Made by a program: the position numbers and the translations under genes. Below are positions 3,385 to 63,834 of a stretch of 64,000 nt of DNA, piece after piece. This DNA comes from Ptychodera flava (Eukaryota; Hemichordata; Enteropneusta; Ptychoderidae), in the NCBI RefSeq assembly GCF_041260155.1, contig NC_091944.1:12589272-12653271 (forward strand). The letters run 5' to 3'. Within the stretch, counting starts at the first letter, position 1. Each line of letters opens with the position of its first letter. Below the pieces are notes generated by a model. The model ran no database searches and was not told the DNA's origin. It saw only the letters and a list, made by a program, of their open reading frames with translations.

Positions 3385-12343
<8,959 letters not shown>

Positions 12344-26935: not shown

Positions 26936-26967
26936 CAACATTTATTGCAAAGGTCCTTCTAAATTAA

Positions 26968-27313: not shown

Positions 27314-29041
27314 TTAAACGCCAAAGGAAAGAGGTAAAACATTTAAATAAATAAACACGGATTTAAGATGTTCGATTATCTTATGTAGGCACAGAAAAAT
27401 GCCTACCGTGATGAATATGTGTGCTTTTTAAAGAGTGAAAGCCACAGAATCTATTGAGTGGCTTTTCTTTAAATTACTCCAAAAACCGAACTGCATATCA
27501 CTGAATTGAATATCTAAACCACTTACAATGCCTGTATATAACAGTGTATCATGATAAGCGATAATCGTTACGAATCTTCAATACCGGTGACCTGCATATT
27601 TAAAAGTTAGTTTCTGTCAATTTAATTGAGTATTGGCAATAAATTGAATCATAGATGTTATATTCAATAGATTAAAAGTTCTTTTGTATTCGACTACAAT
27701 GTATAGATTGGTGAACGAAAGAAAATCCCAATTTTAGATTATTTTCCTGTTGAAGTTTCATACATTACAGTGTTCGGAAAGAAAGTGTACTGCGATGAGT
27801 TGATTTTGTGAAAGGCTCGAAAATCTATGATGCAGATCACTGCAGCAAAACATTAAAATCAGTGTTCATATCTTCATTTCGGTTTCCATTTATAGTCACT
27901 GATCGAACACGAGTGGTGGTGGGAATTAAGCGTGTCCTCATCCAGTTTAAACTAACAACTTTTTTCGTATTCGGATCGAAGTGTTGTCCAAATCACACAA
28001 CACACCTGAAGTTATTCACATTTATTCAAGGCCTGACAAGTATACAATAATGACAGAACTATTGATTTTTTTATCATCAATATTCATAATAATAAATATA
28101 TTAATAATAGGGTCTGTACTTTAAGTACGTGAATTGGGCTGAATGCTAATCGTCATTCAGGATTTGAGTGCTGTAGGGTACCTTTGTAAGTATACAATAA
28201 TAATAGAAATATTAAATTTTATTAATATAACTGATAACACCTTGTCCCCCTGTGGTTTTGCAGTATAAGTAGATGCTGTATAGGATCAAAGTCCCTCCAC
28301 ACACTGCAGGGACTGTGATAGAATATACAATATATAGAACCAATGAATTTCATTAGTTTAAAATGTTCAATTTAATTTTATTAATCATCGTTGATTCCTA
28401 TTTATTGAATTCATATTGAAACCACACCTTGAGTAAGCAGATGAAAACCCCTTGTTTTCACAACGAATATATGGGCGGGGCAAAGGATTTCCCAGCAGCA
28501 AGGTCCCAGTCATGATGTTCCTGGACGTTCATCTTCTCGAAATAAAAGGATTATGTTATAAAATCTCATTAATACTGCCGTTATAGTCTTGACTTTGATT
28601 CCCGGTAACATTATCACTTCATTTCAAAAGAATCAAGTAAATTATTGGTAAGTATTTTTAGGAACAGACCAGGACGATGTGTGCGTGCAAGTATCACAAA
28701 AATGTGTGATGACGATAGGGTATACAAGCTGAAGTTATCCCCCAGCCCGAAAGAAATCTAAATCAAGATAAAAACTGTTATTCCATTAATATTTTATTCT
28801 ACTGTTTGTAAATTGGTTAAGCAACTATAAACGCTCACTGATGTGCAAGACATGCGTTAAATGTTTGCAGTGATCCATTCTTTGAGAACAAAATAAGCAG
28901 CTAAGAGTATGTATGTATCTATTTAAATGTCTGGTTAGATGAAGACGCGGAAAACGAGATTCAGAGTGAATTCTTGCATCGGTCGATGACTTTTCTTGTC
29001 GTGTCCATCGAAAGTCCATGGTTAACAATCTTCAGTGAGTG

Positions 29042-33192: not shown

Positions 33193-33599
33193 CTTCCTAT
33201 TAGCGAAACCAATTCTGAGAGAAACAAGAATGTTTTTCATTTACAGACTGCTTTGAAATGTCACGTCGATGGCTTTATACTCTTTTGAACACTTACAAGT
33301 GGGTGTGGTTTTTTTAAAATGTCAAGAATCAACACATACCGAACTTTTATTCAGACTTCCCAGGTTCATATTGGCTTTGCTAACTAATCAAGATTACCTG
33401 ATTACACTAAACAAATCTTCACATTTTTCATTGTCAATTAAGTAGCCGTTTGCTTCCCCGTAATATAATTTAAAATTGACCATTAACATTGTGCCGATGA
33501 AGAAGACCCGAATCATTTATTATAGTCAAAACCGGCGTCTGCGGTTCCTTGAAATTATGCTCTTCTTTTAAGTTCAATAATTGACTGAAAAGGGTATGG

Positions 33600-36500: not shown

Positions 36501-37372
36501 CGGAAGAAAGTGTACTGCGATGAGTTGATTTTGTGAAAGGCTCGAAAATCTATGATGCAGATCTCTGCAGCAAAACATTAAAATCAGTGTTCATATCTTC
36601 ATTTCGGTTTCCATTTATAGTCACTGATCGAACACGAGTGGAGGTGGGAAGAAAGCGTGTCCTCATCCAGTTTAAACTGACAACTTTTTTCGTATTCGGA
36701 TCGAAGTGTTGTCCAAATCACACAACACACCTGAAGTTATTCACATTTCTTCAAGGCCTGTCAAGTATACAATAATGACAGAACTATTGATTTTTTATCA
36801 TTAATATTCATAATAATAATATATTAATAATAGGTTCTGTACTTTAAGTACGTGAATTTGGGCTGAATGCTAATCGTCATTCAGGATTCGAGTGCTGTAG
36901 GGTACTTTTGTAAGTATACAATAATGATAGAAATATTAAATATTATTAATATAACTGACAGCACCTTGTCCCCATGTGGTTTTGCAGTATAAGTAGATGT
37001 TGTATAGGATCAAAGTCCCTCCACACACTGGAGGGACTGTGATAGAATATACAAATATACAACTACTGAAATTTCATCAGTTTAAAATGTTCAATTTAAT
37101 TTTATTAATCATCGTTGATTCCTGTTTATTGAATTCATATTGAAACCACACCTTGAGTAAGCAGATGAAAACCCTTGTTTTCACAACGAACATATGGGCG
37201 GGGGCAAAGGATTGCCTGGTAGCAAGGTCCCAGTCATGATGTTCCTGGACGTTCATCTTCTCGAAATAAAAGGATTATGTAATAGAATCTCATTAATACT
37301 GCCATTGTAGTCTTGACTTTGATTCCAGGTAACATTATCACTAAATTTCCAAGGAATCAAGTAAGATATTGG
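33600..37372. repeat. Upstream/intergenic segment of array unit 2
   Basis: Near-identical to 24890-28620 and similar to 40390-43570. It includes MITE copies at 35432-35659 (36-bp ends) and 35692-36040 (TTAA family, TTAA flanks 35688-35691 and 36041-36044). No conserved protein frame. The segment continues beyond the insertions at 37375-37747 to exon C of copy 3. Confidence 0.75.
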
Positions 37373-37374
37373 TA

Positions 37375-37612
37375 ATTATTATACACCTACTGCCGTAACC
37401 TATGGGAGTTTGACCGTCCAATAACTTTCCGTATTTTGTATAGTACGCGGAGTCCCGAATACGGGAGACGCGCGACGCGCCTGTTTGGCGTTTGTAGCAA
37501 TTTTATTTCAACGATCGTGCGCGTTCCACTCATATCGCGTGTGCCGCATCCCTCAAAATTTATCATAGAATTAGTTTATACGGACGATTAATGGAGGGAG
37601 GTGTATAATAAT
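37375..37612. mobile_element. MITE with ATTATTATACACCT ends
   Basis: The 14-bp inverted ends ATTATTATACACCT (37375-37388) and AGGTGTATAATAAT (37599-37612) match perfectly. The insertion is absent from the paralogous site near 28650, so it postdates the duplication. No clear target duplication is visible. It directly abuts the foldback hairpin at 37611-37747 and shares words with it (CGTCCAATA, CCGTATTTTGT), so the two may be one compound element. Confidence 0.65.
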
Positions 37613-38127: not shown

Positions 38128-39996
38128 TTAATTGTCCAGTTCAGCTGGCGTGAAATCCTTGCAGTAAAAGTTATACCCATCCTTGGTGATATAACAGAAA
38201 ATAGCCAGTCCAGTGTACGAAACAGGCATTGGTGAGTTCCAGTATACACCATCAAGCTTTGGCGGGCAATTCTGAGTATTTCAAAACAGATACACAATTA
38301 TGAAAGGCTCCTAGTGTAATATCGGCAATGAGGACATTTTTATTGCGATTATATATGGAAAAGGAGAGATAAACCCTTTCTGGGCAATATATATCATGTT
38401 TGTACACTTTTAGAGTGACCGTTTTGGGCCAATAACGTCGCTATACTCAATTGCAGTACGGTAATGCTTTCGTTGGCAACTAAAACGATTTTTTTTTTCG
38501 ACTTTGGTCGAGTTTCAATTTCAAAATATCAACCACTGCATTGGAAAATTAAAGGGACTAGTGCTTGAATCAAAAATTGAATCTAAAATTGTCTTCTCGG
38601 TCCTAATTGTGAGATTACATTGAAATCTATCACATCTAATGAAAGGAGCATGCATAATTTTCTCATATCAATATCCCGTCAAAAACAAACGTCTTTGGTA
38701 CAGTATTTCGACTTACCATGTCAGAACAGAGTTTTTTCATCGCTTTTAAATCTTTGTAATAGTATATTGTACAGTTTCGGCAGCCATCGAGGTCGTCAGC
38801 ATCTAAGATCTTGTCGCCCTGAATTGTCAAGTGGAAAACACTGCTAAGAAAGGCTAAACCAAATCCCTAAGGTGGCGTTGTACGTAACACAGCGTATTAA
38901 CTTTTTGCTGAGATACATTCCATTTTCGTAATAATATGCAAACCCGAGATAAGAATATTGGTTAGGTTCACCTTTTAGCTTGTCAAGCAGTCGTAAGTTT
39001 GGTGAGAAAGAAGTGTAAATGAATGCAAATCATCCTGTTTCCTGAGTTATCTTTTCTCCCGATATCAAGATTCCAAAACAATTTGACTTCTGGATGCACA
39101 TTACGTTCTCGAAATACTATATATCGAAATAATATTTTGTTTGGCAATAAATTTGTTACATTTTGAAAAAAGAGGAATTTTAATTTTCGATATCATGATC
39201 GTTTATCATGATCCGAGCTGAGTTATTGTAATTTTTCTGAAAGCGACCCCTACACACGCTGTAGGATTCATGAAGCAATCGCACATACACACTCGCTATT
39301 GTAAGTTGCTCTGAATACTTCGCAAAAACTGGGCTACAGATAGCTTCGGGTCTTCGGCATATTAGGTTCTAATTTAATTAAACTTTAACAAGCAGTTGCT
39401 CTTAGTGACTTTCAGAGTATTTAAGTATTTGGTGACGATCGTACGAATATGAAACAGCAATCAATGATAAATGAAATGCATATATTTCGAAAAACTAAGA
39501 CGGTGAAAACTTTTCTTTTGTCAAGAGCTTAGAAATGAACCTCTACAAGTGGTAGGTCAGAAGATAATTGATAAAATTTTAAAGCTCGAAATTCTATTCC
39601 CGAGGCGAGTTCTACCTTAAAAAAACTATCAGCAAATGTCAAATAAATGTTTTGAATCAAATATATACTCACGAAGCTATCGGGCGATATTGTGTCATAC
39701 TGGCTACTGTCAATGGTGAAAATCAGAGCGATACGTTCGTTCAGTGCGCGTGCCTGGTAGATTTGAGTGGAATGGGATGGAGAGACTCCTTCCAATTGTG
39801 ACCGTATATCAGTTAATTCATCGTCACATGGAATTCCAAATGCAACCAGCCTGTTAGCTAACGCGAAATTCCCATAGACTTCGCTTGAAACGAAAACGCA
39901 TGATCCATCGTCTGTGCTTCCACTTCCGCCTGATCGTCTATTGACAGCACTGCCAACTGCCAGCAAAACTGCCATTAACGCAACGGTAAACTTCAT
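38128..39996 (-). CDS. Small secreted protein, array copy 3 (unknown family)
   Basis: Closest paralogue of copy 2 and the most compact gene. Exon A 39996-39673 (108 codons) carries signal peptide MKFTVALMAVLLAVGSA, then Cys in GSCVFVSSEVYGN and FGIPCDDELTD, ending SPDSF at GTGAGT. Exon B is 38843-38717 (GDKILDADDLDGCRNC, KAMKKLCSDM). Exon C is 38271-38128 (NCPPKLDGVYWNSPMPVSYT, FYCKDFTPAELDN). The A-B intron is only 829 bases because the 2-kb element of copy 2 is missing, yet the A (phase 0) to B (phase 2) mismatch persists. A minus-strand AATAAA is at 37895-37890. Exon C differs from copy 2 mostly in its middle (LAIFCYITKDGYN versus LVGFCHSNANKDT), hinting at faster change there. Family not recognised. 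Confidence 0.65.
39482..39616 (-). mobile_element. TTAA MITE (family 1), truncated intronic copy 3
   Basis: Only the right part remains (AAGACGGTGAAAACTTTTCT to CGAGGCGAGTTCTACC), followed by TTAA at 39617-39620. The truncation fits a deletion that shortened this intron. Confidence 0.65.
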
Positions 39997-42067
39997 CTTC
40001 CGATTAGCGAAACCAATTCTGTGAGAAAAAAATGTTTTTCATTTACAGACTACTTTGAAGTGTCATTTCGATGGCTTTAAAACTGTCTTGAATACTTACA
40101 AGTGGGTGCCTTTTTAAAAAATGTCAAGAATCAACACATACCGAAGTTTTATACAGACTTCCCAGGTTCATATTCGCTTTTGTAACCAATCAAGATTACC
40201 TGATTACACTACGCAAATCATCACATTCTTCATTGTCAGTTAAGTAGCCGTTTGCTTCCCCGTAATATAATTTAAAATTGACCATTAACATTGTGCCGGT
40301 GAAGAAGACCCGAATCATTTCTAACAGTCAAAACCGGCGTCTGCGGTTCCCTGAAATTACGCTCTTCTTTTAAGTTCAATTGACATAAAAGGTATGGACC
40401 CGTGTTTTTGTTTTATAGTTACATCTTTAAAGACCTCAAAATGTCAGATGGAAAAATGCATCTCATGCTCAGTGTTGTGCATGGAATATTTACCAGCGTA
40501 ACATACTGAAAGTCGAGTCATGCGCAGGTATTTTGGGTCATTTTGAGAGGGAGTAATTAATGTGACAGACTTGTTTCTGAAACGATTTATCCCCTAAGTA
40601 TCCCCATATTATCCAACAATAACGAAATAATGAATAGGTAAATTTCGTCAAGTTTATAAAATCATCAGCATACATATTTCGAAGGCTGATATATATGATT
40701 TCACGTATTTTTGACCTAGACCTAAAATTTGGAGGGGAAAAAAGAGCTTTTCGTAGGTGCCCTCCCACTGACATATACGGAAAATATGCCCTCCAGCTCA
40801 TTGAATTATGTTGCCCACTGCCCTCCAGTATCGACGGTCTGCCCGATCCCGAATCCCCACTATAGTTAAAGCTCCCCACTGCTCTCTGCCAACCACTGGA
40901 ATTCCCCATTGCCCACCAGATGTACATATTCCCTCATTGCGGAATTATTATCTATCTCCCGGACTTGCGTGCGTGTTGCAACCAACATCAACGCAAAACT
41001 GCAAGAGAAAACATCATTTCAACCTTTGGATATTGCTCCCTATAAGTTATGAGATTAATCTTCCCTGAAGTTCTATCAACCACGGCATTCCCCTCTAACT
41101 ACCTATTTTCAGGTTCACACAGCCAGACATTTTCTCCCCGCCAACTGTAAAAAATGAAATTTCTTCGTCGCCCTCTGTAAATATTATCTTTTTCTTCCGC
41201 CTGCTGATTATTTTTTAAATTCGCCCGCCAAATGAAAAACTGCGCACCAATTACACCGTTTAGTACGAACAGCTTCGTTGGGGGCACATGTTTTTCAGCA
41301 TGTTCAAGGGTTCAAACTTCCTCAAAAATGATTATGAAATCGGAAAATAATGCTGAAACACAATGTTTTTTTCACCTAGTATGTCTTCACGTTGCGCTAT
41401 TATGATGAATAAGATGTATCCTGTTTCAGAAAAGTAAAATAGAGAGTCCGCTGAAAGTAAAACATCAACAAATATAACGCACTTTCTATGATTTAGGACG
41501 TACATTTGCATATTATATTTTATAATCCCCTGTGTCTAATACAACGAGACAAGCGTCGGAAATCTCCCTACCTGTACATGTACTGCAGCTTCTCTATGGT
41601 TTGCCTCTGTCTTCTGGGCCAGTCTCTATAAATTTAAACCTCCGATCAGAGTGTGTCCTGTTGCAATGATTTCTCGTCTTTATAGTCTTGAAAGGTAATT
41701 GTAATTACCAACCATCAAAACATAGAACCATGCGGTGTATAGGATCCAAATTAATCGAAATAATTATAATGTTGAATTTTGATTAATTGGAATCATCAGT
41801 GATTGAACCTCCATGAATAGACCAATATCCGCGCAGAATGAATTTCTAGAACTTTGTAACCGCGAAAGTTTGGATTTTACTTGCGGGTATGCACGTCTCT
41901 GAAAAGTTTATTGTTATCGACCATTATGTCCTACCGAAACATAAAGCGTAACTTTGTGTGTGGCCATACTGCTATCTGACGAAACAAAGTCTTTGAGAAG
42001 CAGAATTGTGTGATCCGAGTATTTCCTTAGTTTCAATGTTTATATGTGTACACATGCGAATATAATG

Positions 42068-46527: not shown

Positions 46528-49500
46528 ATGCAGTGTTTAACAGCACCAGTTTGCATCGTTGTCGTTCATGCATATTTGATGTCTGCGGCATTCAGTTGGA
46601 AAGTTCCCGACAATGTTTACGAAACTTTCTACGGTACAACGAAAAAGGAACATGCTGGCGTTCAGCTCAAAACCAAGGGTTCCATTCCAAAATGGTTAAA
46701 TGGTGAGAGCATTTTAATTTTTTTTCATATAAAGACTGTAAATACAGTAGAATTAGCATCTTTACCGACAGATTTGAAAAGGTATTTCGGTGAATTTCCA
46801 CATGCCTGTCTGATCGTTAACCATTCATTTGCTGCATTCGGTTGAACAAACGGAAACTGGAAAATGGAGGATCCGTCGCATCGCTGGAGGGCGCAAGAAG
46901 CGCCACTATGAACAGTGTTGATCTCAGTAGAAATTACCAAAGACCTTACCTTGTATATTTCTCTTTAATATAACTACATTCCGTAGCGTACATACTCCAT
47001 GCTCTTGTCACTTTGCTTTGCAGGGTATTTTCTGCACCAGAGTTGTGGTTCGTTCGGAAATAACAGTAGTGACCCTGGGAGTAAAATACTTCACATCTTT
47101 GATTGCATTGGCTCCGTCACCTCATTTGACTTCAACAAGGGACGTGTCGATTACTCACACAGGTAAGCGTGAGTGGAGTTATTGTACATGGGTAGTAGTA
47201 TATGTTAAAGTGAGAAAATATGGTGGAGATATGCTTAAATGTATTTTGATCGACCAGACTGAATATCTGACTGACGGGCTGACTTGCAGAGAGTGCGTGT
47301 ACTATTGTATCTGAGGACATAATTTACTACCCGTCTCTTTACAGGTTTTACCGCACTAGACCTTTTAAAATATGGGATTATTACGAAAGAGATATGGATA
47401 AATCCAAAGTCGCCTGGATGACCGCTTACTCTGAAATTGTAAGTAATCAAGGTGCAAATTCGAAAATTTTCTGCTTTGGTTCACAGATCGAGAAAGTAAG
47501 CCTGTTCTCTTGTTCTTCCCCCAAACGTATACAGCCAGTCAAAGATTTCGGGCACTACGAACACAAAGCTTTGTGTATAATGTAAACTTGCATCGCTGAC
47601 AAATATACTATACTAGTCCAGACTAGAATTCAATTGTCGCCAGTAGCATTGGTCACGAGACATACAAAGGCCAATAGAATTTATTACTCCCTCTCACGTG
47701 AAATTATGTGATCCTACTTGACATTTGAAGCCTATTTTAGTGACGACGTTAGTATAAGAGAGGAAGGATCGTATGTGCTTGAGTGGGAGAGCGGGCGCTT
47801 TTGCTCTAGCGATGTACGCTTCTAGTGAAACCCGAGGACAGATCGATTAAAAAAATAGATGTTGCTCTTTTCGTTTTCAAGGATCAAGACCAGTACAAGA
47901 AGTGGTCGCCATTACAAGATTACCCCGTCCTCAATCCGAACGTCGCATTCTGGAAAATTGGCGACAAAGTAGCAGCCGTGACGGATAACCCTTCAGGTAG
48001 GTAGCTGTCTATGATAGCATATGCTATTCCCTGAACCATCAAAATGTCCGCAGTGACGGACCGAAAGACACACAGACTGACATGCGCAAAGGGACAGGCA
48101 GTAACAGAGATGGGATTGGCAAGTGGAAAAAGTGCAATTAACTAACAAACAAACAAACAAACAAACAGATCGTAATATTTACTGTCTGACACATGTAGAT
48201 GCAGCTTTAAAAACGTGTCTTTATTTAATTACAGGGTACTGGTTTGACTTGCACACCCTCGAAAGTAAAGGTATCTTTCCTTTTAAAGACGTCAACTTTG
48301 GTTTCTCACATTCGATGGTTCCTGTCAATAATCCTGCGCATGAGCACGTGGATGAAGACGGAGTTACTTTGTACAGTTCAGTTTCTATGTATGACATCAG
48401 CGATTTTGACAATGTCAATGTCATGTACGTGTGTTAGTATTATCGAACTCACCTATCTCCGTACATACCAAGAAGTGACATTGTAGTTACAAAAATGTTT
48501 TGTTTGAAACCAGTTTTCATACAGTATGCAGTCTACTAAATCTAAGACGGGCTGTGTACATTCAAAATATTGTAACTATTGATAGCATCGAGAAGAATCG
48601 TTTTCAAGATTTGATGACAAAGAGGAAGGCATTGTTTGTTTTCCGTTCTGTTTGGCAAGGGAGCACTTTGTAAATATTTCATCTTTTCAGATGTCAGATT
48701 TTCGATTTATAGCTTCTCCTCACTGTAATTGTGTGTCGTTATTAACTGCACAGGAACTATGAAGTTCATAATGCTAGGATAATTCCTTCGTCTGCTTCAT
48801 TATCAAGATCAATATTTGACTGACCGTGCTAAGATTTACTTTCTGTCTGCAGACGTGTGATATATAAAATCGTCAACGAAACAAGAGTTCGGATCGCATC
48901 ATTCCAAGAAGCGGGGCCTTTTAATCTGAACCATTGCTATTTCGACTCGACTTATCCTCTGATGACAACACGCGGTTCATACTTACATTCGTTCTGTATG
49001 ACAGAAAACCACTTTGTACTACCGATGAGCACCTTCCTCTACGATAAATGCAGTTTATTTAGAGGTAGGTCGAAAGTTGGTTCTCTTATATTTTTACTTT
49101 GCACGGCAAAATATTTCGGTTTTCAAAAGACTTTTGAAAAAACTGGCCAGAGTTTGACGTTTGTCTACATACTTTTTAGCTCCAACATGAAAAAACACAT
49201 CAAGAGAAATGAAAGCCCATGATATGATATGGACATTCTAATTTGTGTACTGAATTGTAGTGTGCCAAACAAACAGACTCACTGCAAATGTCCTGCTATT
49301 TTTTCAGTCAATGATCGAGATGGGCCTGAGGTGCCTCTCTACAGCACGATTATGAAGTATTCCGAGGACGTCCCGACACGTTTTGTTGTCGTTAGCAGAA
49401 GAACAAACGAAGTTGTGGGCGAATTCACGACTGAAGACGGCCTCTTCATCACACACCAGGTCAGTTTTGAGTTTTGAAGTTCATGTACGTTCACAATGTA

Positions 49501-50686
49501 TGCTGCCCTCAACGGTAAACAATGTACAGATGAGATTCCTGTCGATCGGTAAGCCCTATATCTGAAATTACCTGACCGCTACAGTATTACTGGTGTCCTT
49601 CTTGGATGTACCCACACAAGAAAGTATTTTTTCGAAATATTTAATGGATTCTGCATGATATATGGCATACTTAAGCGCAAAACATACTAGTTAGTATCAG
49701 GAAGCAAAAACGGGTCAGCGAATACACAATTACGTAGACTTGGTTCAAGTCTGTGATTTGTGAATGTTTGAGTCCATGGGTTGAATGCGATAACTTGTGT
49801 TCTGTTTTCGTGTGAAACGCGCGAGTGCGGTGAACGCCATGAGTGGGGTGAACACTTTACAGGGGAGTTTCTCCTGGAATTCGGCAGAAATTAACTCACT
49901 ACTACGCAGACTCAAAGGTAACGCATTCAATTAATCGCAAGGAAACCAGGCCTTGGCTGCCAAATTCCAAATACCGACTTGAACTAAGTCTAACAATATC
50001 GCTGCAATGAATAGTTATTCCGGTTCATGCATAGTGACCAGCACAAAAATCAAGATATTGATGTGTCCTTTCGATACTATCTGGGGCATTCTAAAAATTG
50101 TGTTTTTATCAATGGTCTCCTCTCCCTTAAATTCATACTTCAACATTTGATTACTTGACCACGCACTATTGTTAGTCCGTAAACAGTGCCTAATGAGCCA
50201 CGGTGTTCACCTTACCGGGGAATTAAATCAGTCGGTCAACGAACTACCAATGACCTGAAAGAAGGACTTTCACGTCTTTTCACAAGGGAGTAAGGAACAA
50301 GGAAATCAAGTACACGACTTGATGTACGAACACTTTCGTTTATATTTGTGAAAAGATTTTCTTGTTTTAAAAAGTTGTCAAAGAACCTTACAAGAAAATT
50401 AATGTGTTGAAATCAAAATAAACGCTAAGACAAGTTGAGTTTTTTACCTTTACAGTACAGAAATGGGTCTACTCGATGTGTTGTCAAATTAAACGAGGTT
50501 ATTTTCGTTTTACAGCTGAATTCCTACGAAGAAAACGGTATAATGTATCTGGATATGTTGACTTACCGGGGAGATATTTATGAACATATGCACTTGGATA
50601 AACTGCTGACCACTCCAGTAAGTCAATATTATGTTGTAAGGGAAATCAACTTGAACCACCTCTTCCTCCTCTGTCTGTCTGTCTGT

Positions 50687-50725
<39 letters not shown>

Positions 50726-52800
50726 GTTACATGTCACCGCTTCTTCATCTATTTGGATAACCTGTCAGCCAGTTCAAACACGAGGATAGAAAGTAATCGA
50801 TAAGCTATGAAAACATTGATAGCAATCATCACTCAAAATCATAAAATCGTGCATTTTTGTGTGTTTTGGCATGTTGTCGCGATTTTATGCTAAACTGATA
50901 TGATTTATAAAAAAAATACTCTGTTTTTCTTTCATGCTACAATTACAGAATTTTGTCACCAGAGTTGAGAGATTTTTAGTGGACATGTCAGACTGGACTC
51001 TATTAGACAGAATTGACCTCTTGCCCAATTCTAAATACAGCCTGGTTGAATTTCCAACCATGAACTATGAAGTATACAACACCAAGCCGTACAATTACAC
51101 ATATATGGTTGGCTTTGACCCGATACCAAATGTACTAATCAAGGTATGCGTTTTCTTTACATCAAGTTAGAAGCGAATATGGCGTCGTCTGGTTGCGATC
51201 TCTTGATTAATTCTTTCCACTGCGCCTTTTCTTTTCCGAACCGTTTTGGCTGGTACGTTTGGGCAATTGTTCACATGAAGAAATTAAGGTTTCTTATGTT
51301 CTTGTGTGATCGGTGATCTCAACCGTGTGAAATAAAATCTTCTGTTAAACAAACCACTGTGGACACCGACCTACTACCCTATCCTCACTTCGTGGCATCA
51401 AAGTAGCGATGATCCAAAAATTGTTTAGATGAAACCAGTGTGTTTTCTGCATATCTTGATCTCACTCATCGCAGTTCGATAATTTTGTGAATTGATACAT
51501 TAGATGGGAGTAGTAGAGTAGATAAGTGGGTATTTTGGCAAAATATTTCATTTTATGATACAAGAATGAAACTTTGCAGAACCATCAATGGTATATCACT
51601 TAGTGAAAAAATAACGCTGGCCACCAGAAAATCCAAGATGGCGGCCGCATGGCAGCCATTTTCCAATATGGCTGCCGTGCAAATATAAAGGTTGAGAATA
51701 ATCATTACAAGCGGGCTATTTGAATCATGAATGCATCATTACGGATTTATCACTCATTCTTGTGGAAATGTTTCCGTGTGACTGAACACAAAACTTAATT
51801 AAATGTGATCTTCCCGCCAGAAAAAAGGTGTTCTACATTCTAATTCCCTGATATTTTCATACATTCCAAGTTAAATGTCCAGACCAACGAAACATTGTAC
51901 TGGGGTCCATTCGAGGGGCTTATACCCGGCGAACCAGTCTTTGTTGCCAGACCAGACTCGACGGCGGAGGATGATGGCGTCATCATTTCAACTGTACTGG
52001 ACACAAACGTGAAGAAAGGTGGGAGACAAATTTCTGCCTTTCTTCCTGAAATACATATTAGCGTCATAGTTATTTTTTTTTATTTCCAAGGCGAAAACTC
52101 TCAAAAACACAACACCCTGTGATTTGAAACAAGACCAGAGTCTTTTGTTTCGGTGGTCTTCTGTACTTTGAATGTGTTTATCGATAAATGTTAACGTAAA
52201 ATAAACTTAGCTCACGTGATCGTAGTTATGATCTACTGATCAATCGATAATAGATGGGTAGATAGAAAAATATAATCGTAAGATACATATATATGACGTT
52301 TTCATTACTAAAACTGGTGTAATGCGACTTGTTGATATTTTACATCTATATTACGTCATTTTCTCCCTTTGATGTCTCTGGTGTAATGATAATGTAAATT
52401 TATTTTATTTTTAGTGAATTTTCCATTGTTCTGTAGGACCGCATTTTTTAACATTCCGTTCGTTTACTCTGTTCATTTTAGCCTACCCGTTGTAACTTGA
52501 AATATTGATACGAGTCGTGAAATACTATCATGCGACTGAACTGTTCCCATCCTCTATTTCTTTCTCGTTGCCGCAGGAATGGTTGTCGTCCTTGACGCGC
52601 AGACCTTCACCGAAATCGGTCGAGCTGTATCCCCCGAGCTGATGCCATTCGGTCAGCACAGCAAATTCATAAGGCAATCAGCTACTGGCTCGACCAGAAA
52701 TGTCGTTCAACGAGTTGCATTTGGGATGATATCCGTCTTGTCACCAGTTGTGTTGCTAGCTATTTCCCTCGGCAGAAACATCGTTGTTTATCTCTCGTAA
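46528..52800 (+). CDS. BCO-like: Carotenoid oxygenase family protein 1, signal peptide and hydrophobic C-tail
   Basis: Fe(II) oxygenase of the BCO1/BCO2/RPE65/NinaB family, expected to cleave or isomerise a carotenoid/retinoid. Eleven exons: 46528-46702, 47024-47162, 47345-47438, 47882-47996, 48235-48424, 48853-49064, 49308-49459, 50516-50617, 50949-51143, 51871-52018, 52577-52800. All have GT-AG borders and consistent phases, 581 codons. Iron histidines: NPAHEHVDEDG, YLHSFCMTEN, FITHQLNSYEENG, LMPFGQHSKF. Second-shell acidic motifs: LVEFPTMNYE, GEPVFVARP and EDDGVI. N-terminus MQCLTAPVCIVVVHAYLMSA looks like a signal peptide. After the last His the chain continues about 40 residues with a hydrophobic segment (AFGMISVLSPVVLLAISLG), unlike cytosolic relatives. 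Cysteines at NLNHC, HSFC and YDKC are shared with the next gene. Sequons: NET, NYT. Likely luminal or surface-anchored (type I or GPI). The substrate is unknown. Confidence 0.9.
50691..50722. repeat. (CT)n microsatellite in intron 8 of oxygenase 1
   Basis: Sixteen CT units 74 bases past the exon 8 donor. It creates spurious Ser-Leu frames. Confidence 0.9.
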
Positions 52801-53354
52801 AATTTTCACAGTGGCAGTTTAAAACGTTTTTATATCGACCACAAACATTGATTGTAGAGATTCACCTCTGGACCTCAGCAAGTCTCCAATATAATCAGCA
52901 GAATCACGGGAAATGTTGGTATTAAAAATGAATGGCGGAGGGTGGACGTATCAAAACATAGGCCGTAAGCTAAATGACAAGCGATTCTTAAAGGAAATGA
53001 ATGACACGAGAAAATAAGAGGGAGAGAGTTTCACATTCGATCAAAATGGCCGTTAGAAACCTTGCATCTAACACCCTTCTGCATAAAGAGACTTTTAGAA
53101 TCTTTGCTTTGAAATGATTATCAGAAAGAATATGGTCGGTATCACCTCTCTTAATCGATCGTTGCAATTTACGAAAAGCTGGAACCTGTCTTATGCTCGA
53201 TCTCATATTCTCCGATGCGACGTGTGTAAATCCAAGTTGATAAGTATTTTGCCATATACGGTATCTATGATCCAAAGATTTTGAACAAGCTTTGAGGGGC
53301 CTTGGTGGGACACCTGGATGAATTGAGGGGGTTACTGTAAGTGTCAGACGTTAA

Positions 53355-53537
53355 TGGTATACTGTCACCTGTTCCAATTTTGCCACAGTTACCATGGAAA
53401 GAGAAAATCTAACCAATCACAGATTTTAAGCGGGTGACCGCTTTTTAAAACAGCGCCCTCACATGGGCATTTTGAATATCAAGGACGCCCCTTTGACCAT
53501 ATATGGGCATACTTAGATTACAGGTGACTGTATGCCT
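53355..53537. mobile_element. TTAA MITE (family 2)
   Basis: TTAA on both sides (53351-53354 and 53538-53541). Inverted ends TGGTATACTGTCACCTGT and ACAGGTGACTGTATGCCT (16 of 18 pair). 183 bp, non-coding. The TTAA target suggests a piggyBac-type source. The ends differ from the family 1 MITEs in the secreted-protein array. Confidence 0.7.
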
Positions 53538-55330
53538 TTAACATCTGGTGGGTATGTTATTGTTTGATACAACGTTTAGCGATCTTTCATCGGCGCACAG
53601 TCACTCCACTGCGATTGGCGTATGGGAGATTAAACAATGGGACTAATATACAGCGTCTGGGAAGCTTTTATCCTATTGGTTAGCTGAAACGCATATTTCT
53701 TATTCAATTATTTCCAAACGTCCAATCAGAGGATAGCCCCTAGTTTTAGACTCCTTAGGTTGCCGTTGATAATGACAACTACCCAATCAGATGCATTTAA
53801 ATAACTGCAAAATGTAGTGCTGCTTGTTACAGCCTCCTTGAAGATATGAAAAATGACTGATTCAATGTTAAAACTTCCTCTACACAGCTTGATATATGAC
53901 GTCCTTCTTCGCACAGGAAGGATCCACTTCACCTTTTGAGGAGTGGTACACTACAAATATGTGTCACAGATCGAGTGAAAGTGTTCAGGAAATGCAGCTG
54001 ACGTCGTGAAAGTTATAAGAGGAGTGAAATAAAGAAATACAATTTTATAAATGAGCCTTCTCCCGAAAGGAGAAAATCGTAACCTGCGTGGCACCCTTCT
54101 TGTTCTGATCACCCCTAAAATGTGATGGTTTGTCCCATATCATACTTGCACATATATTAGCTGAACAGGGATGTCTGTACAGTCTTTCCTTTGGTAAGAA
54201 ACACTATATAAAGAAATAAACAAAAAGGACAAGACTGATACTGAAAAAGTTCGACGACATAGCCTCAATGCCGATAAAATATCTCTCATCGACGATTATA
54301 ATATATACTTGTGACATCACTGTGGGGAAATGCTTGCTACAGTTTTCGCCTCTTCCTATTCGTCTCTTTTTCCAGTTTCATGATGTGCTTCGAATATTTT
54401 GAGTCAATTAAGAGAGATTGGTTGTCACTTTTGTTTACTCCTTATGGCACAGGGTATACTTAATTTCATATGTGGGATTGTATTGGAAACTTTTAAAAGT
54501 ATCATTTTTTGCCACAACACTTGTAAACAACTCAACAACAAATAAACAAACAAACTTCATCCTTTTTTGACAAACATGAACACAAATACAACTCTTTATT
54601 GGTTCTTTATAGCACATGCACAAGCCAAGTTTGTCGTCTCCGAACAAAAAATACGGGATTTATTCTCTGGTCGTTCTACGTCACGACAACCCGCGTCTAT
54701 GTCATCAATTTTGGTGCGTCGGACCTTTTTTTTTGTCGATCTTCGGTGTGCTCGTAAATATGTAAACAAACAACATGGTGGCCGATGTTTCTCCCACGAT
54801 CAAAAGTCATGTAATGAAATCGATATTTTCACAGACTACGACATTACTAATCCGAACAATGTAAACACAAGAGTGTACCGCCTGTATATTCCGAAGGAAT
54901 TACGTGAATAATTTGCGGAAACAACGAACTCGAAGCTGGTCGCGTATACCGTGGGTTCCGTACGCATTGCAAACAGGGTCAGGCGTGACGTTTACAGTGT
55001 TCGCGCCGTCGAGATTCAGTCGATATTTGTTCCCGAAAAACAGCGTATCTTCGTCTGTGATAAATTTCTAGGACTATGCTATCTTTGAAATAGAGTATAA
55101 CTTTGCGGAAGGTAGCCTACGTGTAGACCGAGAGCTGTCATTTGCTCCACACACGAACGAACGTGAGCGCGAACGCACACGACGGACGACTGGAAATGAT
55201 TGACAACTTGTGCACGGCGTACTGATATTTATTCCTAAAGTAGTTCAAAAGTTTAAACGCGGAATCCTCATGGAAAACTTATTTTATTTTGCAAAAAATA
55301 ACGAATTCTTGGCTTGTGCATATGATAAGT

Positions 55331-55482
55331 ATATTATTCCCTAATATTTTTCTTCATTCAGCTCGGAAAATACTCGTGACGTAATGACCGTGTCACCACT
55401 CGTCTTCGACTCGTGGTGATACGGTCATTACGTCACTCGTATTTTCCTTCCCTGAACGAAGAAAAATATTAGGGAATAATAT
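55331..55482. mobile_element. Giant foldback hairpin B
   Basis: A 152-base palindrome: ATATTATTCCCTAATATTTT... on the left and its complement ...ATATTAGGGAATAATAT on the right. It is centred on CTCGTCTTCGACTCG and has arms of about 70 bases with a few mismatches. The central motif and GGTCATTACGTCACTCG-type arm sequence relate it to hairpin A at 37611-37747. Confidence 0.8.
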
Positions 55483-56800
55483 CTAATTATTCAGTACATG
55501 TTTATATGGTAACAAATAGACAAACACGCATAAACAATCAAATAAACAAGGAGCAAGAGTTCCCTTTGGTTTTACACATATCATCGCCTATTACGACATA
55601 CACAGATATGCTAGGGATTCCTTGATTGCAACTGCGCCCTGCTCACCGCAGCAGGTACATCAATAGGCACTCTCATGGCCCCTCGTTCTCTGAGCAGCTC
55701 GTCCTGGCGAGTGAGGCTGACTGAGACAGCCCTTGGCGGCTTCACCGGCTCACTTAGCCAAGCTTTGCTCGGATGAACTGCTTAGGGTGTTTGCAAGGTC
55801 AACAGGCGTTGCAGCAGAGGGGCCGTGAGAGAGTCTAGTACATAAAGTACTGTAATCGCTTTGCGTGAGGGATCAAAGGTTATGATCTGTTTTCTCCTGA
55901 CCTGCCATGGGTGTTAGTCATTCCGATTCAATCTTTTCAACGAAATGTTTTTTCACAATCACGCGTTTTTGCAGTTTATTGACGATATAGATTGAGAGTA
56001 AGCGGTGGACAAAGATAAGTTAAACAATCAACATCACTGCGACACGCTTTTAAGTTTGAGGATTCGTTTAATTTAAGGTAAGTTGGAGAAGTTGATCGAA
56101 CAATGATATTCACCCGAACATCGCTAAATAAATATGTGGCATCGAGGTTGATGTTTCCAAATAGTTTATAAGCTATTACAAGTAATGGTATCGATTTCAC
56201 AAGTTTGTTAATATTAATATATCCTGAAATAATCTTTTACCTCGAACTGTGGACCCTAGAAAAAGAACGAACAGTGTTTTTAAGGGTCGCAAAAACAGAA
56301 CGAACTGTCGTTGATAGTTTGCTTAACCACTGTGGGGTCATTGTTCCTTTGTGACCTGATTCAAGCTAAGCACAGGACAACCAATGGGGCGTAAAAGGGG
56401 ACGCCCAAACTGAAAATAGGCACCACAACAAACGAAAATACATGGCGGGAATAATATTACAATGTTCTGACCGGACGAAGAACTCCCTTCGACTATCAAT
56501 GGTTCAGTTCTGGGATTGTACAATTACTTGTTAGTTGGCACTGCTTATTTGCGAGTATTCGAGATACTTACGACAAATGATAGACTCGCTCCAAGTCTGT
56601 GGGCATACAAATATCAAAACATAATATTGAAGAAATGTACTTCAGCTCACTCTCGCTTTAAAGATAGCCTGTCGCATGGGTCGTGGGGTGGACGCGCGTG
56701 CTGCTGAGAAAAGCCAAGCGACTGGGGTCCAGTGTAGGCAAAGAATTGTCAGTTGTTTGCTTTTAAGAAACCATGGCCTTTCATTCTAATAGACCGTAAA

Positions 56801-59663
56801 ATGGTGGATCTGAAGGTTGCATTCCTTTTTGCGTTGATCACCATGACGACATGTGACGACATGGCCCACGACCTGTTGAAGACCTATTTTGGCACCATAG
56901 AACGGGAACACCCCTACACAGACATTAAAGTGGAAGGATACATTCCAGAATGGTTGTCCGGTGAGTAAAAATAAAGTATTCACCGTGCGCAGTACAGGTA
57001 TTGACACCGATGGTCCTAGCTATATCTTCAAGCATTGAGGTTTGACCTCCATGTTTCAAGCAAGGACGGTAAGACGTACTAGTTGAGCGTGAAATTCCGT
57101 AAAGTGTATCGAATAAGTTTACACAGTCTGTGTTTGGAAAAGTGGAAAGAGCGGTATACTTGAGAAGAATTACACTTCCATAAGATTTATCGTGTCGCGT
57201 GTGGGTGATATTCATGCACCTTTGCTAAAGTTGAACACTTCATATCTATCATATATACGCCCGCCCTTGTGGTATTCACTTTGATATGTTCGACAGTTTG
57301 TTATTTGTTACCTCACCTTGTTTATGTGCGGCATTGCAACCGTGACTCGTTTTGCTTGTTCATTTCTAGGATACTTTTTGCACCAGACAGCAGGGAGCTA
57401 TGGCAACCAAAGCAACCCCAAAGTAGGAGAAAAACTGACGCACACTTTCGACGGAGTTGGAGCAGTTTCTTCTTTTAAATTCAACGGTGGTCACGTGCAA
57501 TATTCGATCAGGTACTGTAGTATAAAGAGTTCTGCAGAAAATATGTTCGCTCGAGTTGTCAGTTATAGCCTAGACAAGATAAGTAGATTCGTTTGTGGAA
57601 CTATCGTTTCTGGACGCAGTCTAGCCATATTATGGCACCAATTATGTTACGTACATACAAAGGAAGACCATCTAATTTTCACCGTTCACGAAAGTCAAAG
57701 AGATGTCCGATCGGGCAATCAAATCAAATCAAAACAACTAATAAAGTTATTTACTAAAAGATATGTCAATGGTGCCACGTGAACACGAATACACCTGGAC
57801 AATAGTAATCGAATTTTTTACTGACTATGAATTAAACGTGCGAGGCAAACTTGTTCCTGTCTGGTCCTAATTCTACACTCTTTTCTGAGGCTCACACTTA
57901 ACTCGTTGCATTGTCTAACTAGTCAAAGGCATCAAAACGCGCCTTTGCTATCCACGTTCATCCATGGTCACTCCATCTTGTGGAGTGACCGTGGTTCACC
58001 CAATCAAACCTTGCCAATCAGGGAGTGCCCATCAGAGCTAGGCTCGGTCAGCCATTGACCCGAGATCGAAATACGGTTACAACGAAGGCAATATATGTCT
58101 CGCGCGTCCTTTGCAGGTACTATGTGACGCAGCTGTTCAAGATATTTGACTACTACAGTCGGAACATGGATAGGTCAAAGGTCGCGTGGGGGACAACCTT
58201 CAGTCCCTTTGTAAGTAATTCTGTAGAAGGCAGGTCTTTAGAAGTGTGACTTTAACAGAAGATTTATCTACGACATCCGCTGAATATTATAATAAGGTTA
58301 TACGGTGAACTCCTAGACTCGACAGTAGTAGATGTATGGTCACAATCAGTGTTAAGCATTCAGTTTAGTGTGAAGAAAGGGCCAATCATGCTGTGGCTCT
58401 TTTGAGTAGACTTAAAAACATCAATGTATTTCTTCATCCATTTTTTCTATTCATTCATCCATCCATCCATCCATCTATTCATTCATTCATGTATCTTCTT
58501 ATCTACACATTTGTTCCATCGTTCACTTATTCTCAAAGGATCAACAGCAATTCAAAAAGTGGGAAGACTTCCATGATTATCCTGACGATAATCCCAATGT
58601 GGTATTTTGGAAGATCGGGGACAAAGTGGAAGCCATGTCTGAAGCTACTGCCGGTAAGTATTTGGCTCTGTACCATGCCATCCACGACTGTGATACTGGA
58701 ACATCTATTCATGGCCCATGTCGCTTATCTATCCATTATGGGTCCGTCCGTTAACCATTCACCTACTTTTTTTTTGTAATTAAGTTCTTACATTTGGAAT
58801 AAGAGTCGTTTCAATTTTTCTTAACAAGATGTTAATCACTTTTTTAAAGACAGTCTCTCAATTCCTACCATTTAAGAATTGTAATAAATAATGCAAAATA
58901 AAATTATCGTCTCTTCAACATAAACTCTGGTTTCAAATGTGATGTTGCATTTCATAAAGTAGTGTCAAGTTCTTGACATTAATTAATGTTTATTGTTAAT
59001 ACCAAAAATGGGGTTTTTACCCCAAATATGTACCCTTCATCCTTCAAGTAATCTACTACTACCATACTAAACTTTACATTCTATGCTTTTTGAAATTATA
59101 GAGAATGTGGGGGGGAGTTAATGTATCTGTAATGAGTATATAATGTTTTGAAAAAAGCGTGTTGTTCTAATTTTCGATCATTACAGGAGTGCAGTTTGAC
59201 CTTGACACACTGCAAACCTTGGGAACATATCAATTTAAGGACGACAACTTTGGTATGCCACCGTACATGGCTTACTTGAACAATCCAGCCCATGAACACT
59301 ATGGCGGTGATGGCGTTACCATCTACAGCGCTGTTGCTATGTACAACATGAGTGATGTCTCCAAGATAAATGTGACGTAAGTTGAACGGCCATAGCACAG
59401 GCGCCGGTGAAGTTTGGCAAATGTAGTGTTGTGATTTCATGGTATCGCCATAGTGTAAGAACCTACATGCAAGTGCCCGATTTCACCAACGCCTGTGTTC
59501 TACATGTGTCACAAAGGTAAAAAATATTCCGGTTTCTGACACGTAGCGATGATGTCACCGAGCACTCCACCAAGCCCAGACAGAGCTGGTTGATGCCAAG
59601 AGAGCCCTAGGTGGCACCCGGGTGCATATATGTCATGTTCCTGATGATGATGATGATGATGAC

Positions 59664-59711
<48 letters not shown>

Positions 59712-60195
59712 AGTGCGTCGATTATCAATGATTTTCTTACGAATTTCAACATATCATACATACTGGTCGACACTGAGAGGTCTAAGTTTTGCCTTTTAAA
59801 CTGAGTACCCCATACAAGCTCTATTAAAGTAACAGAAATTCGTAGAATCACCAAGAATCCAAATTTTACCCGATGATTGGGTCAGTATCACAACCGATGA
59901 CCTCATTAATCCATGACTTTTAGCAAACACTTATTGGCTTCTTTATTTGAACAAGACACAAATATTCTGCACTTACGTGTATCTCACCTTTCTCTCTCCA
60001 ACACACAGACAAACGGAGACATACAGTTTTAATATTGCGAAGACATTGTCACACAATATTTTGTGCTTCGTTTTGTTCTTAAGGTATCTGAGTACCAAAA
60101 ATGTAATTTATTATAATGACAGTAACTGCGACTGTTTGCTCTTCATTTCAACATTACTATATATTCGGAATCACAATTTGGCAGTGTACATGCCA

Positions 60196-60268
<73 letters not shown>

Positions 60269-63200
60269 CCCAGAGGTATCTTCTACTATGAAAATTGTTG
60301 TCATAAGACCGAACGAACGACCCTGTAACACTTGGTGTAATCTCTAACGTTTACCCGGCATCGCATCACTACCATTGTGAATAGGTCAGGTTTCTCCACC
60401 TTCAAATATTGATATCTTTGTACTTCCTGATATTGCATCGAGGTTCAAGTCTGAAATAGTTTTTTTAATCGTCTAAATCCCATTGTTGTATTCACATAGG
60501 CGGATGCTGTACAAAGTGGTCGACGACACGCGTATTCCAGTCGCCTTATTCCATGAGGCCGGGCCGTTCAATCTTTCCGAGTGCACGCCTGGGTCTTCTT
60601 ATCCGGATATGGACGACAGAGGGGGCTACATGCATTCCTTTTGCATGACAGAAAACTACTTTGTTATGCCAACCTCAACATACAAGTATGATGTCTGTTC
60701 AATTTTCAGTAAGTGGTCGTCACATGAGAGGATTTCTGTCATCAAGATATTCATTCATGTATCGTCGCTTTAAATTATCCTTGTTGTCCGTTTTTTGTAC
60801 GCTATGATGCAGTAATTAACATAGTTTGTTCCAGTTCTGGACGTCCTGTCCCTATATCACTCTGGCACGTCGACTTTGTGATAGGGTTTTTGCATCTTGA
60901 TTACAATGTTGAAAAAGCGACGCTTTCAGCTAGGCAATAACCATCACGAGGCGCTGTCACATAACCACGTAGATATATGACGTGTGCACTAAAGAAATTA
61001 TTACTCTCTCGTTGTACTAGATGAGAAATTACCTCCGGAACCGTTTTTCAAGACGAAAACTGAGTACTCGGAGACCTCACCTACGCGTTTCGTCGTAATC
61101 AGTCGATCGACCAGAAACGTCGTTGGGGAATTTTCAACACCAGATGGTTTATTCGTTACGCATCAGGTATGACGACTGCCCTCAACCTGCAGAAATTGTC
61201 AGGGGGACGATCCACGGCATAGTGGCAACACAACAATCGTAATCTTTCTCAAAGTTTAAACATCTTTCATATAGCTCGTACAAGAAGTTTTTCCAATGAA
61301 CGCCCATCTACTGTAACAGATTTAATATATACTAATCTATTATGATGGAACAATTTTTAATTGGCACAAGCAGATTATGGAAATAGTTATATAATTCAAT
61401 GATCAACCTGATTCCTAGAATGATATCTTCGAAACAAAATTCCATAATGTCGGGAAGTGTCGATTTTTTATCTGTTGTGATTTGTTTCTTTCCAGTTGAA
61501 TTCCTACGAAAAAGACGGCATGATGTATCTCGACATGTTGACCTATCGTGGAGACGCTTACGGACATTTTTACATCAAGAATCTTTTGAAAGGTTCGGTA
61601 AGTCACGCCGTGAAAAAATTCTAGCTCTTGAAAGGATTGAAAAACGATTTGTCGTCTTCATCTGTTGTCTTTCCAAGAAAGTGTGTAAAACAATGCTGTT
61701 TCTTTCTGGCTGGGTTTAGCTTTGTTTTTGCCCAACAAAGTGGCATAAGGTAGATCGCGCCTCTCAAACAAAGTTTCTCTTTCAAAATAAAGGATAAAAA
61801 TAAGGGATTTGTAAATTTTGGAACTAGAGAAAATCAATATTTACTGATATTTGAAATTCAAAATGGCCTCCATCCCTGTGTTATCTCTATGGGGGGAAAA
61901 ATAAAATTCATGAGTTTCACTCTATTAGCCGGTAAAACTTTATTACTCCATAAGCTTCAAGATGAGCCCCCACGGGTGGTGGGCCAAAAGAATATTGTTA
62001 AAGTTTGAGAGTTCGAATATCTGTCCTGGAGGCGCCTTTTACTGTACTATAAACAGAAAACTTTACTCTTGTTTTGCAGAAAGGATTGCGAACTAGAGTG
62101 GAGAGGTTTGTTGTGAATACATCAGACTGGTCCTTGACAGAAAGGAAAGAACTATTTCCAAAACGTGACCATGACTTGGTGGAATTTTCAACTATCAATT
62201 ATCAAAGTCACAGCGGCAAACCTTACAAGTATGCCTACATGATTGGATTGGATCCTGCGCCCAATGTCCTAATCAAGGTAAGGTCGGAGAATGATAATGC
62301 AACTTGACATAAAACTGTACAATGTCGTTTTCTATGATATCTAGAACGATACGTTTGCTCTAAAGAAATGTATTTTCACACAATAAGCGACGTTTTGGTT
62401 GACCAGACATCTACTTATTCTTTGAAGTATACGAAATTTTCTTACAGGAATTATATTTGATACTATCCCCGGGTTTTCATTCTCTCACAGTTGATCATTA
62501 ACTGCGAATAACTATTTCTACATCGTTGGTCATTTTCTCTCCAAACGAATTCAAAAACAGAAATTTCTAAGTTTTAAATAGGATTCTTTATCGTCACTCA
62601 CATCGTAGACAGCAGAAGCGAGATCACACTAAAAGCATGCGGGGATTACGAAATGCGAAGTCCGACAGCAACGCAAGTGAAGGCGTAGACAAATATAAGA
62701 AGCTCACGCATGCGCACTCATCGAAAAATGTTCTCAAACATGCACTGGTACCCGTTACATGCATTCTGTTACGCTTTATAGCTGAATGTTGACACCGGAG
62801 AGGCGAACTACTGGGGTCCATACGATGACCTGATACCAGGAGAGCCCATCTTTGTCGAGAAACCTGGCTCCAGTGCCGAGGATGATGGAGTGATTCTTGC
62901 AAATGTTCTTGATACCAACACTGGAAAGGGTATGTATTTTGACGTCATAGCTATGGCAGCTTTTCGCACATTTTCGGCGACCAGGTGCTTTTTCAAGTGC
63001 CCCAGGATACCGATGTTGTCGCCAGGTGTCCATTGTGTGCGTTTGTGTGTCTGTTTGTGTAACATGTCCTTGTGCACTGAGGAAATTTTTGTCAAGTTTC
63101 ATTATATAAAGAGCTTATGTGTGCCACATTTTACTATGATGATGATAGGATACGCATCAGGTATGTAGAAATTGAGTTGTCGTCGTATTCCTTTATAAGT

Positions 63201-63661
63201 ACAAAAGAACTGTAAATAGCCAAACGGGGTTTTCGGATCAACATTTGCATGAATTTGTGTTTATTCATTAAATGCCTAGGCTATTTAATCAGAAGAAACA
63301 TGATACAAGCGCAGGAAAATACGTATTGATATGGTTCGGAAATGAATTAACTTACAGGAAAGGAAAATTTCTCGAAAGAATCAAAGGTTACATTTCTTCC
63401 GTTGGTTTGTTTATTATTTTGCTTGCATATTCATTCACTCGTTTTCCCGTTGATTCGTTCACAGGAATGGTCGTCGTGCTGGACGGCAAATCATTCGCAG
63501 AGCTAGGGCGAGCGATATCGCCCGAGCTCATGCCCTTTGGATTTCACAGCAAATTCATCGAAAAGGCATTCGATGAAGGCACGGTAACTTTGTCAAGACA
63601 TACTACATGCGTCGTGTTCGTATTCCTGTGTGTCGCCATTTTAGTTTTCATGAAACGGTGA
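56801..63661 (+). CDS. BCO-like: Carotenoid oxygenase family protein 2, signal peptide and hydrophobic C-tail
   Basis: Tandem paralogue of the upstream gene with the same 11-exon layout: 56801-56960, 57370-57511, 58117-58210, 58539-58653, 59187-59376, 60500-60708, 61021-61166, 61496-61597, 62080-62277, 62782-62929, 63465-63661 (566 codons, all phases agree). Iron histidines: NPAHEHYGGDG, YMHSFCMTEN, FVTHQLNSYEKDG, LMPFGFHSKF. Acidic motifs: LVEFSTINYQ, GEPIFVEKP, EDDGVI. The start at 56801 (MVDLKVAFLFALITMTTC) gives the better signal peptide; an in-frame Met 48 bases upstream would bury it. The C-terminus has a hydrophobic segment (CVVFVFLCVAILVF) and a basic end, MKR, like a type I anchor with a tiny cytosolic tail. 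Cys at NLSEC, HSFC and YDVC match gene 1. Sequons: NLS, NMS, NVT. AATAAA signals lie at 63829 and 63943. Catalytic residues look intact. The substrate is unknown. Confidence 0.9.
57966..57990. repeat. Short perfect hairpin in intron 2 of oxygenase 2
   Basis: GGTCACTCCA-TCTTG-TGGAGTGACC; the pairing can extend about four more bases outward with one mispair. No transposon flanks or known function. Confidence 0.7.
59642..59711. repeat. (GAT)n microsatellite, intron 5 of oxygenase 2
   Basis: About 23 trinucleotide units with one GAC interruption. Poly-Asp, poly-Met and poly-Ser frames here are artefacts. Confidence 0.95.
60199..60265. repeat. (AT)n microsatellite, intron 5 of oxygenase 2
   Basis: Uninterrupted AT run, 235 bases before the exon 6 acceptor. 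Confidence 0.95.
61749..62047 (-). mobile_element. TTAA MITE (family 1), diverged, in intron 8 of oxygenase 2
   Basis: The left end GGTAGATCGCGCCTC follows ATAA; the right end is GGAGGCGCCTTTTACTGTA. The body shares AATGGCCTCCATCCCTGTGT and the GGTAAAACTT/GTGGTGGGCC blocks with the array copies. It is older than those copies by divergence. Its right end lies only about 33 bases upstream of exon 9, so it overlaps the likely branch-point region of that acceptor. Confidence 0.6.
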
Positions 63662-63828: not shown

Positions 63829-63834
63829 AATAAA
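63829..63834 (+). terminator. Polyadenylation signal AATAAA, oxygenase 2
   Basis: Canonical AATAAA 168 bases past the stop codon, with a second at 63943-63948. Either could define the 3' end. The rest of 63662-64000 holds nothing else I can support. Confidence 0.5.

Follow-up and report, generated by a model that had tools for sequence, protein, structure and literature searches.

A 64,000-nucleotide stretch of the Ptychodera flava genome (NC_091944.1, positions 12,589,272 to 12,653,271, forward strand; the window below) carries two tandem carotenoid oxygenase genes, g1 and g2, both on the + strand with 4.0 kb between them. Judged from their sequences, both probably encode non-haem iron oxygenases of carotenoids (or apocarotenoids) that are anchored as type I membrane proteins and sit in a lumen or at the cell surface. 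The layout of a type I protein, with a signal peptide and one C-terminal hydrophobic segment of helix length, was found in both by hydropathy and weight matrix only, and the region corresponding to the membrane-sensing helix of RPE65 has lost its PDPCK motif and its hydrophobic residues. Gene g1 (46528-52800) and gene g2 (56801-63661) were rebuilt from GT/AG splice sites and homology, each with 11 exons, as follows:

46528-46702, 47024-47162, 47345-47438, 47882-47996, 48235-48424, 48853-49064, + strand: g1 carotenoid oxygenase, exons 1-6 (splice model, PF03055)
49308-49459, 50516-50617, 50949-51143, 51871-52018, 52577-52800, + strand: g1 exons 7-11 (splice model, PF03055)
56801-56960, 57370-57511, 58117-58210, 58539-58653, 59187-59376, 60500-60708, + strand: g2 carotenoid oxygenase, exons 1-6 (splice model, PF03055)
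61021-61166, 61496-61597, 62080-62277, 62782-62929, 63465-63661, + strand: g2 exons 7-11 (splice model, PF03055)

The two complete oxygenases of 581 (g1) and 566 (g2) residues that a sequence-only reading had proposed were recovered from splice sites, and the four iron histidines that it had described as retained were seen in both proteins: residues 206, 279, 351 and 529 in g2 and, by alignment offset, 210, 283, 358 and 535 in g1. Both match PF03055 over nearly the full profile of 469 positions (cut-off 27 bits), g1 with an E value of 1.9e-72 and 245 bits at profile positions 6-468 and g2 with 1.3e-76 and 259 bits at positions 4-468. By this profile match they belong to the carotenoid cleavage oxygenase superfamily, with polyene cleavage as the predicted activity. 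For the three second-shell acids, numbered as in RPE65, the alignment gives E/E/E for g2 and D/E/E for g1; the first of them is E in 48 prokaryotic rows and D in the lancelet protein BCOLg. The FDG motif reads FDG in g2 and FDC in g1, and the context of the fourth histidine is FHS in g2, QHS in g1 and FHG in most relatives. Intron phases agree at 10/10 positions, and the proteins are 57.6% identical over 516 aligned positions. The protein body, with nonsynonymous (pN) and synonymous (pS) differences of 0.27 and 0.81, is by sequence comparison under purifying constraint; synonymous sites are saturated, so that dN/dS is not usable for this pair. No further convincing oxygenase copy was found within the window by tblastn (remaining matches with E at least 3.2), a scan of viral contigs found no relative, and Rfam gave no match.

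The proteins continue beyond the HSKF of the fourth histidine for 43 residues in g1 and 34 in g2, and each tail contains a hydrophobic segment:

52714..52770, + strand: g1 C-terminal hydrophobic segment VAFGMISVLSPVVLLAISL, residues 554-572, then GRNIVVYLS and stop (Kyte-Doolittle hydropathy over 19 residues 2.36)
63608..63652, + strand: g2 C-terminal hydrophobic segment CVVFVFLCVAILVFM, residues 550-564, then KR and stop (Kyte-Doolittle hydropathy over 15 residues 3.35)

The 19-residue Kyte-Doolittle peak of the tail (2.36 in g1, 2.19 in g2) was equalled by 0.56% of 538 random reads for g1 and 0.88% of 1138 for g2, and the 15-residue peak by 1.86% and 0.09%, respectively, the controls being stop-terminated random reads taken from both strands of the window, on the + strand outside the genes. 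The highest 19-residue window between the two ends reaches 1.38 in g1 and 1.26 in g2, against a usual threshold of 1.6. All 49 prokaryotic relatives whose end could be read stop 2-14 residues past the H+3 position, and a tail of at least 20 residues occurs in 0/49 of them. The tails of g1 and g2 are dissimilar in sequence, yet each is open and hydrophobic. When neutral drift was simulated in 20000 runs, the two descendants both stayed open with a 19-residue peak of at least 1.6 in 0.27% of them, whichever tail was the start. The loss in these runs came mostly from stop codons, so that hydrophobicity alone is weaker evidence than the 0.27% suggests.

At the other end, the first 18-23 residues are hydrophobic and followed by a predicted cleavage site in both proteins, as scored by a hand-entered von Heijne weight matrix, for which the usual cut-off is 3.5:

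46528..46596, + strand: g1 predicted signal peptide, residues 1-23 (best score 3.76, cleavage after residue 23)
56801..56854, + strand: g2 predicted signal peptide, residues 1-18 (best score 5.67, cleavage after residue 18)

Score and hydrophobicity were both equalled by 3.2% (g1) and 2.6% (g2) of 189 ATG-led open frames, drawn from all of the - strand of the window and from its + strand outside the genes, and the signal segment alone would represent moderate evidence. Hydropathy and the weight matrix together bear out, in both genes, the earlier description of a hydrophobic N-terminus combined with a hydrophobic tail after the last iron-histidine motif.

Residues 107-125 of RPE65, including the PDPCK palmitoyl site, form its membrane-sensing helix (PMC9585964). 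The corresponding segments of the two proteins are the following:

47882..47929, preceding two residues at 47433-47438, + strand: g1 segment replacing the RPE65 membrane-sensing helix (mean Kyte-Doolittle hydropathy -1.52)
58539..58586, preceding two residues at 58205-58210, + strand: g2 segment replacing the RPE65 membrane-sensing helix (mean Kyte-Doolittle hydropathy -2.0)

Mean hydropathy of this region lies between -0.13 and -0.30 in five references including BCOLg; the g1/g2 stretch is polar and acidic. In a second alignment, g2 and g1 had the two lowest values of 52 rows, and 0/46 prokaryotic rows lay at or below -1.5, two rows having too few letters there. The PDPC(K) motif, which characterises canonical BCO1, BCO2, RPE65 and NinaB and is present in the RPE65, NinaB and BCMO sequences compared, is absent from g1 and g2. 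A second stretch, which we take to be membrane-facing in RPE65, is also more polar in the g1/g2 pair (-0.15 and -1.18) versus the references (0.39 to 0.92). Our reading is an anchor swap, in which the monotopic grip would have been lost where a C-terminal anchor was gained.

Regarding topology, location, substrate and activity, we infer the following course. Both proteins would be synthesised on ribosomes bound to the endoplasmic reticulum (ER), and the N-terminal segment would be cut off by signal peptidase. The seven-bladed propeller, a fold expected from the family, would fold inside the ER. Translocation would be halted at the C-terminal hydrophobic segment, which gives a type I protein with only a very short stretch in the cytosol. 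In this orientation the enzyme would face the cell exterior, an endosome or the lumen of the ER, where Fe(II) on the four histidines could cleave, with O2, a polyene taken from the adjoining membrane or from lipid particles. The tail anchor would do what the amphipathic helix around PDPCK, lost in g1/g2, does in RPE65.

Several observations weigh against this reading. The signal scores are moderate, derive from the hand-entered matrix and are matched in random frames at a rate of about 3%, and each ATG is closely preceded by an acceptor-like site, at 46524 (score 6.5) and 56768 (7.7), the 20 model acceptors scoring 3.8-15.5. Three donor-like sites follow the fourth histidine of g2, and alternative splicing could replace its tail. 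The tail sequence is without conservation (pN 0.61, pS 0.76), a single lineage kept an open hydrophobic tail with a peak of at least 1.6 in about 5% of simulated runs, and among simulated tails that stayed open, 31% (g1 start) and 23% (g2 start) remained at a peak of at least 1.6. The prokaryotic control set was chosen by a single motif from the alignment. Sequons, which together with cysteines were checked for hints of exposure to the lumen and were little informative, are not clearly above expectation (5 vs 4.4; 5 vs 3.2). The activity of g1 may also be altered, because of its FDC, the Asp at the first second-shell Glu and the Gln preceding the fourth His.

The firmness of the 3′ ends was assessed with a donor matrix built from the 20 donors of g1 and g2, on which the model donors score 5.2-12.6. 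After the fourth histidine of g1, the two top-ranking donor-like sites reach 0.6 and 0.1, below all 20 model donors. The corresponding sites of g2, and the signal beyond its stop, are the following:

exon end at 63583, + strand: donor-like GT site in the g2 last exon (score 6.1)
exon end at 63627, + strand: donor-like GT site in the g2 last exon (score 6.4)
exon end at 63657, + strand: donor-like GT site in the g2 last exon (score 7.9)
63829..63834, + strand: AATAAA, 167 bases beyond the g2 stop, in keeping with a terminal exon

Equally high scores were reached by 3.9% (63583), 2.8% (63627) and 0.8% (63657) of the GTs at 1-46000. Splicing from the donor at 63583 or from that at 63627 would delete or truncate the hydrophobic segment; the strongest, at 63657, lies beyond it, and its use would add a further exon. 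The g1 end thus appears firmer than the g2 end, which is less sure because of these three sites. Beyond the g1 stop, the nearest signal is an ATTAAA after 120 bases, and the first AATAAA follows after 1227. A further donor-like site of g1, at 52651 (score 5.9), was set aside; it precedes the fourth histidine and would delete it.

The alternative that survives best, which we consider unlikely, is that g1 and g2 are ordinary secreted BCO-like proteins (BCOLs) with a real signal peptide, soluble like BCOLg, and that the tail is trimmed, spliced away or a 3′ run-on. The g2 donor-like sites that would shorten the segment and the divergence between the two tails fit this explanation, as does BCOLg, which is partly secreted (PMC7221588) and lacks a tail; against it stand the missing comparable donor in g1 and the hydrophobicity of both tails, which exceeds that of most random reads. 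It is improbable that the enzymes are held at the cell surface by glycosylphosphatidylinositol (GPI), with the C-terminal segment as a signal exchanged for lipid. The short tails, the small upstream residues (TGS in g1, EGT in g2) and the predicted signal peptide would suit such a signal; however, GPI signals normally finish in the hydrophobic stretch, and the charged or polar residues that follow it here, KR in g2 and GRNIVVYLS in g1, make GPI less likely than a type I helix. Of the earlier proposal of secretory, membrane-anchored luminal or cell-surface oxygenases, secretory entry and the C-terminal anchor are supported by sequence, and its GPI variant recedes behind the type I helix. There is likewise little prospect that the N-terminal segment is something other than a cleaved signal, with an upstream exon or an uncleaved anchor altering the topology: the upstream acceptor-like sites fall within the range of the model acceptors, but they would impose phase 2 (46524) and phase 0 (56768), a difference that argues against a shared upstream coding exon whereas the ten known introns agree in phase, and the cleavage scores exceed the cut-off in both proteins.

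Beyond the type I topology preferred here, a wider interpretation is offered tentatively: a distinct animal subfamily may have swapped its hold on the membrane, the cytosolic amphipathic helix giving way to a signal peptide and a C-terminal type I helix that keep the enzyme on the outer or luminal side, and may cleave carotenoids and release apocarotenoids or retinal at the surface or along the secretory route. Lancelets, molluscs and an annelid have carotenoid oxygenases that are predicted to be secretory, and the matches listed from open-licence PMC text gave, in the parts available, no account of their role outside the cytosol. A membrane-tethered form would indicate a fixed site of action, for example the gut or skin surface, and would offer a natural comparison for how enzymes reach membrane-buried substrates.

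The remainder of the window contains repeats and gene remnants. Between g1 and g2, a nested inverted repeat (55331-55482), with 31-nt arms (97%) outside 40-nt arms (88%), looks like a small palindromic mobile element. Segmental duplications occupy 22725-43559, in blocks of 1.0-3.8 kb with 83-92% identity (for example, 24858-28656 with 33589-37380 and 32681-35079 with 39485-41834), and include a duplicated open reading frame (ORF) with the signal-peptide-like MKFTVALMAVLLAVGSAVNRR at 32842-33240 (- strand) and 39532-40038 (- strand), which had no Pfam match. A partial family 29 sialyltransferase gene (PF00777) lies at 3388-4145 on the - strand, with an E value of 7.5e-13 for the ORF at 3388-3741; the - strand ORF at 3825-4145 gave 0.053 for PF00777, below the cut-off. 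Retroelement remains at 7203-8881 (- strand) carry a reverse transcriptase domain (PF00078) at 8177-8881, and the - strand ORF at 7203-7739 looks by eye like more of the same element. The sialyltransferase and reverse transcriptase matches, like the richness in introns of the genes, accord with an animal genome. Satellite-like arrays are found at 21439-22648 (units of about 146 bp), 16618-17741 (384 bp) and 31558-32040 (162 bp).

In the phylogenetic tree, which included BCOLg as its one, incomplete BCOL row, neither grouping of g1/g2 with known animal enzymes was rejected. Constraining g1/g2 with BCOLg lowered the log-likelihood by 1.90, with an approximately unbiased p value (p-AU) of 0.379 for this single incomplete row; constraining them with RPE65, NinaB and BCMO gave a log-likelihood 1.40 above the free search (p-AU 0.573). 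Both g1/g2 and BCOLg sit on very long branches, of 2.52 and 2.51 changes per column, respectively. Among features of the BCOL family, the lack of PDPC(K) is shared by both genes, the signal peptide is found by the hand-entered weight matrix, and FDG is found in g2 only.

RPE65, NinaB and BCMO (PDB 3fsn, 8fty and 7wh1) share with g1/g2 the fold family and the four histidines, and their second-shell glutamates are as in g2. They are not known to be secretory, and unlike g1/g2 they have PDPC, a less polar helix and chains ending 3-5 residues past the matched motif. The best-scoring solved relative is the archaeal carotenoid oxygenase PDB 6vcf (176 bits to g2, 28% identity), which is tail-less and ends 4 residues after HG, its end being identical to that of the Nitrosotalea locus L002; together, the solved chains of 6vcf, RPE65, NinaB and BCMO stop 0-5 residues past the matched motif. 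In the structure of BCOLg (PDB 9plv), residue 531 of the chain is the Q of PRSFQ and equals the tabulated native length of 531, and the letters after it are presumably a V5-His vector tail; for these reasons BCOLg is taken to be without a hydrophobic tail.

The BCOL family itself was described in 2017 from lancelets, molluscs and nematodes, and Table 1 also lists an annelid (PMC5643517). In that paper, a TargetP signal peptide is tabulated for 19/20 BCOL proteins, lancelet BCOLs are without PDPC(K), BCOLg splits beta-carotene and lycopene in E. coli, and C-terminal extensions are mentioned for some BCOLs, their nature being unstated there. A significant fraction of lancelet BCOLg was secreted from transfected HEK293F cells, and the protein is reported not to be palmitoylated (PMC7221588). 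These reports put out of date the premise of the sequence-only reading that animal carotenoid oxygenases are solely cytosolic, monotopic or mitochondrial. Like BCOLg and its family, g1/g2 have a predicted signal peptide, no PDPC(K), kept iron histidines (three of four visible in the BCOLg letters at hand, all four according to PMC5643517) and an animal origin, and likewise occur in more than one copy, lancelets having several BCOL copies per genome. Unlike BCOLg, to which g2 is only about 21% identical, they carry GYFLHQTAGSYGN-like letters instead of the GTLLRNGPG-like stretch, extra insertions and the C-terminal hydrophobic tail. Among the matches listed from open-licence PMC text, in the parts available, no animal carotenoid oxygenase is described with a membrane segment at its C-terminus. 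The secretory half of the arrangement is already known from BCOLs; what looks new is its combination, in g1 and g2, of a predicted signal peptide, a putative C-terminal membrane segment and the loss of the amphipathic helix.

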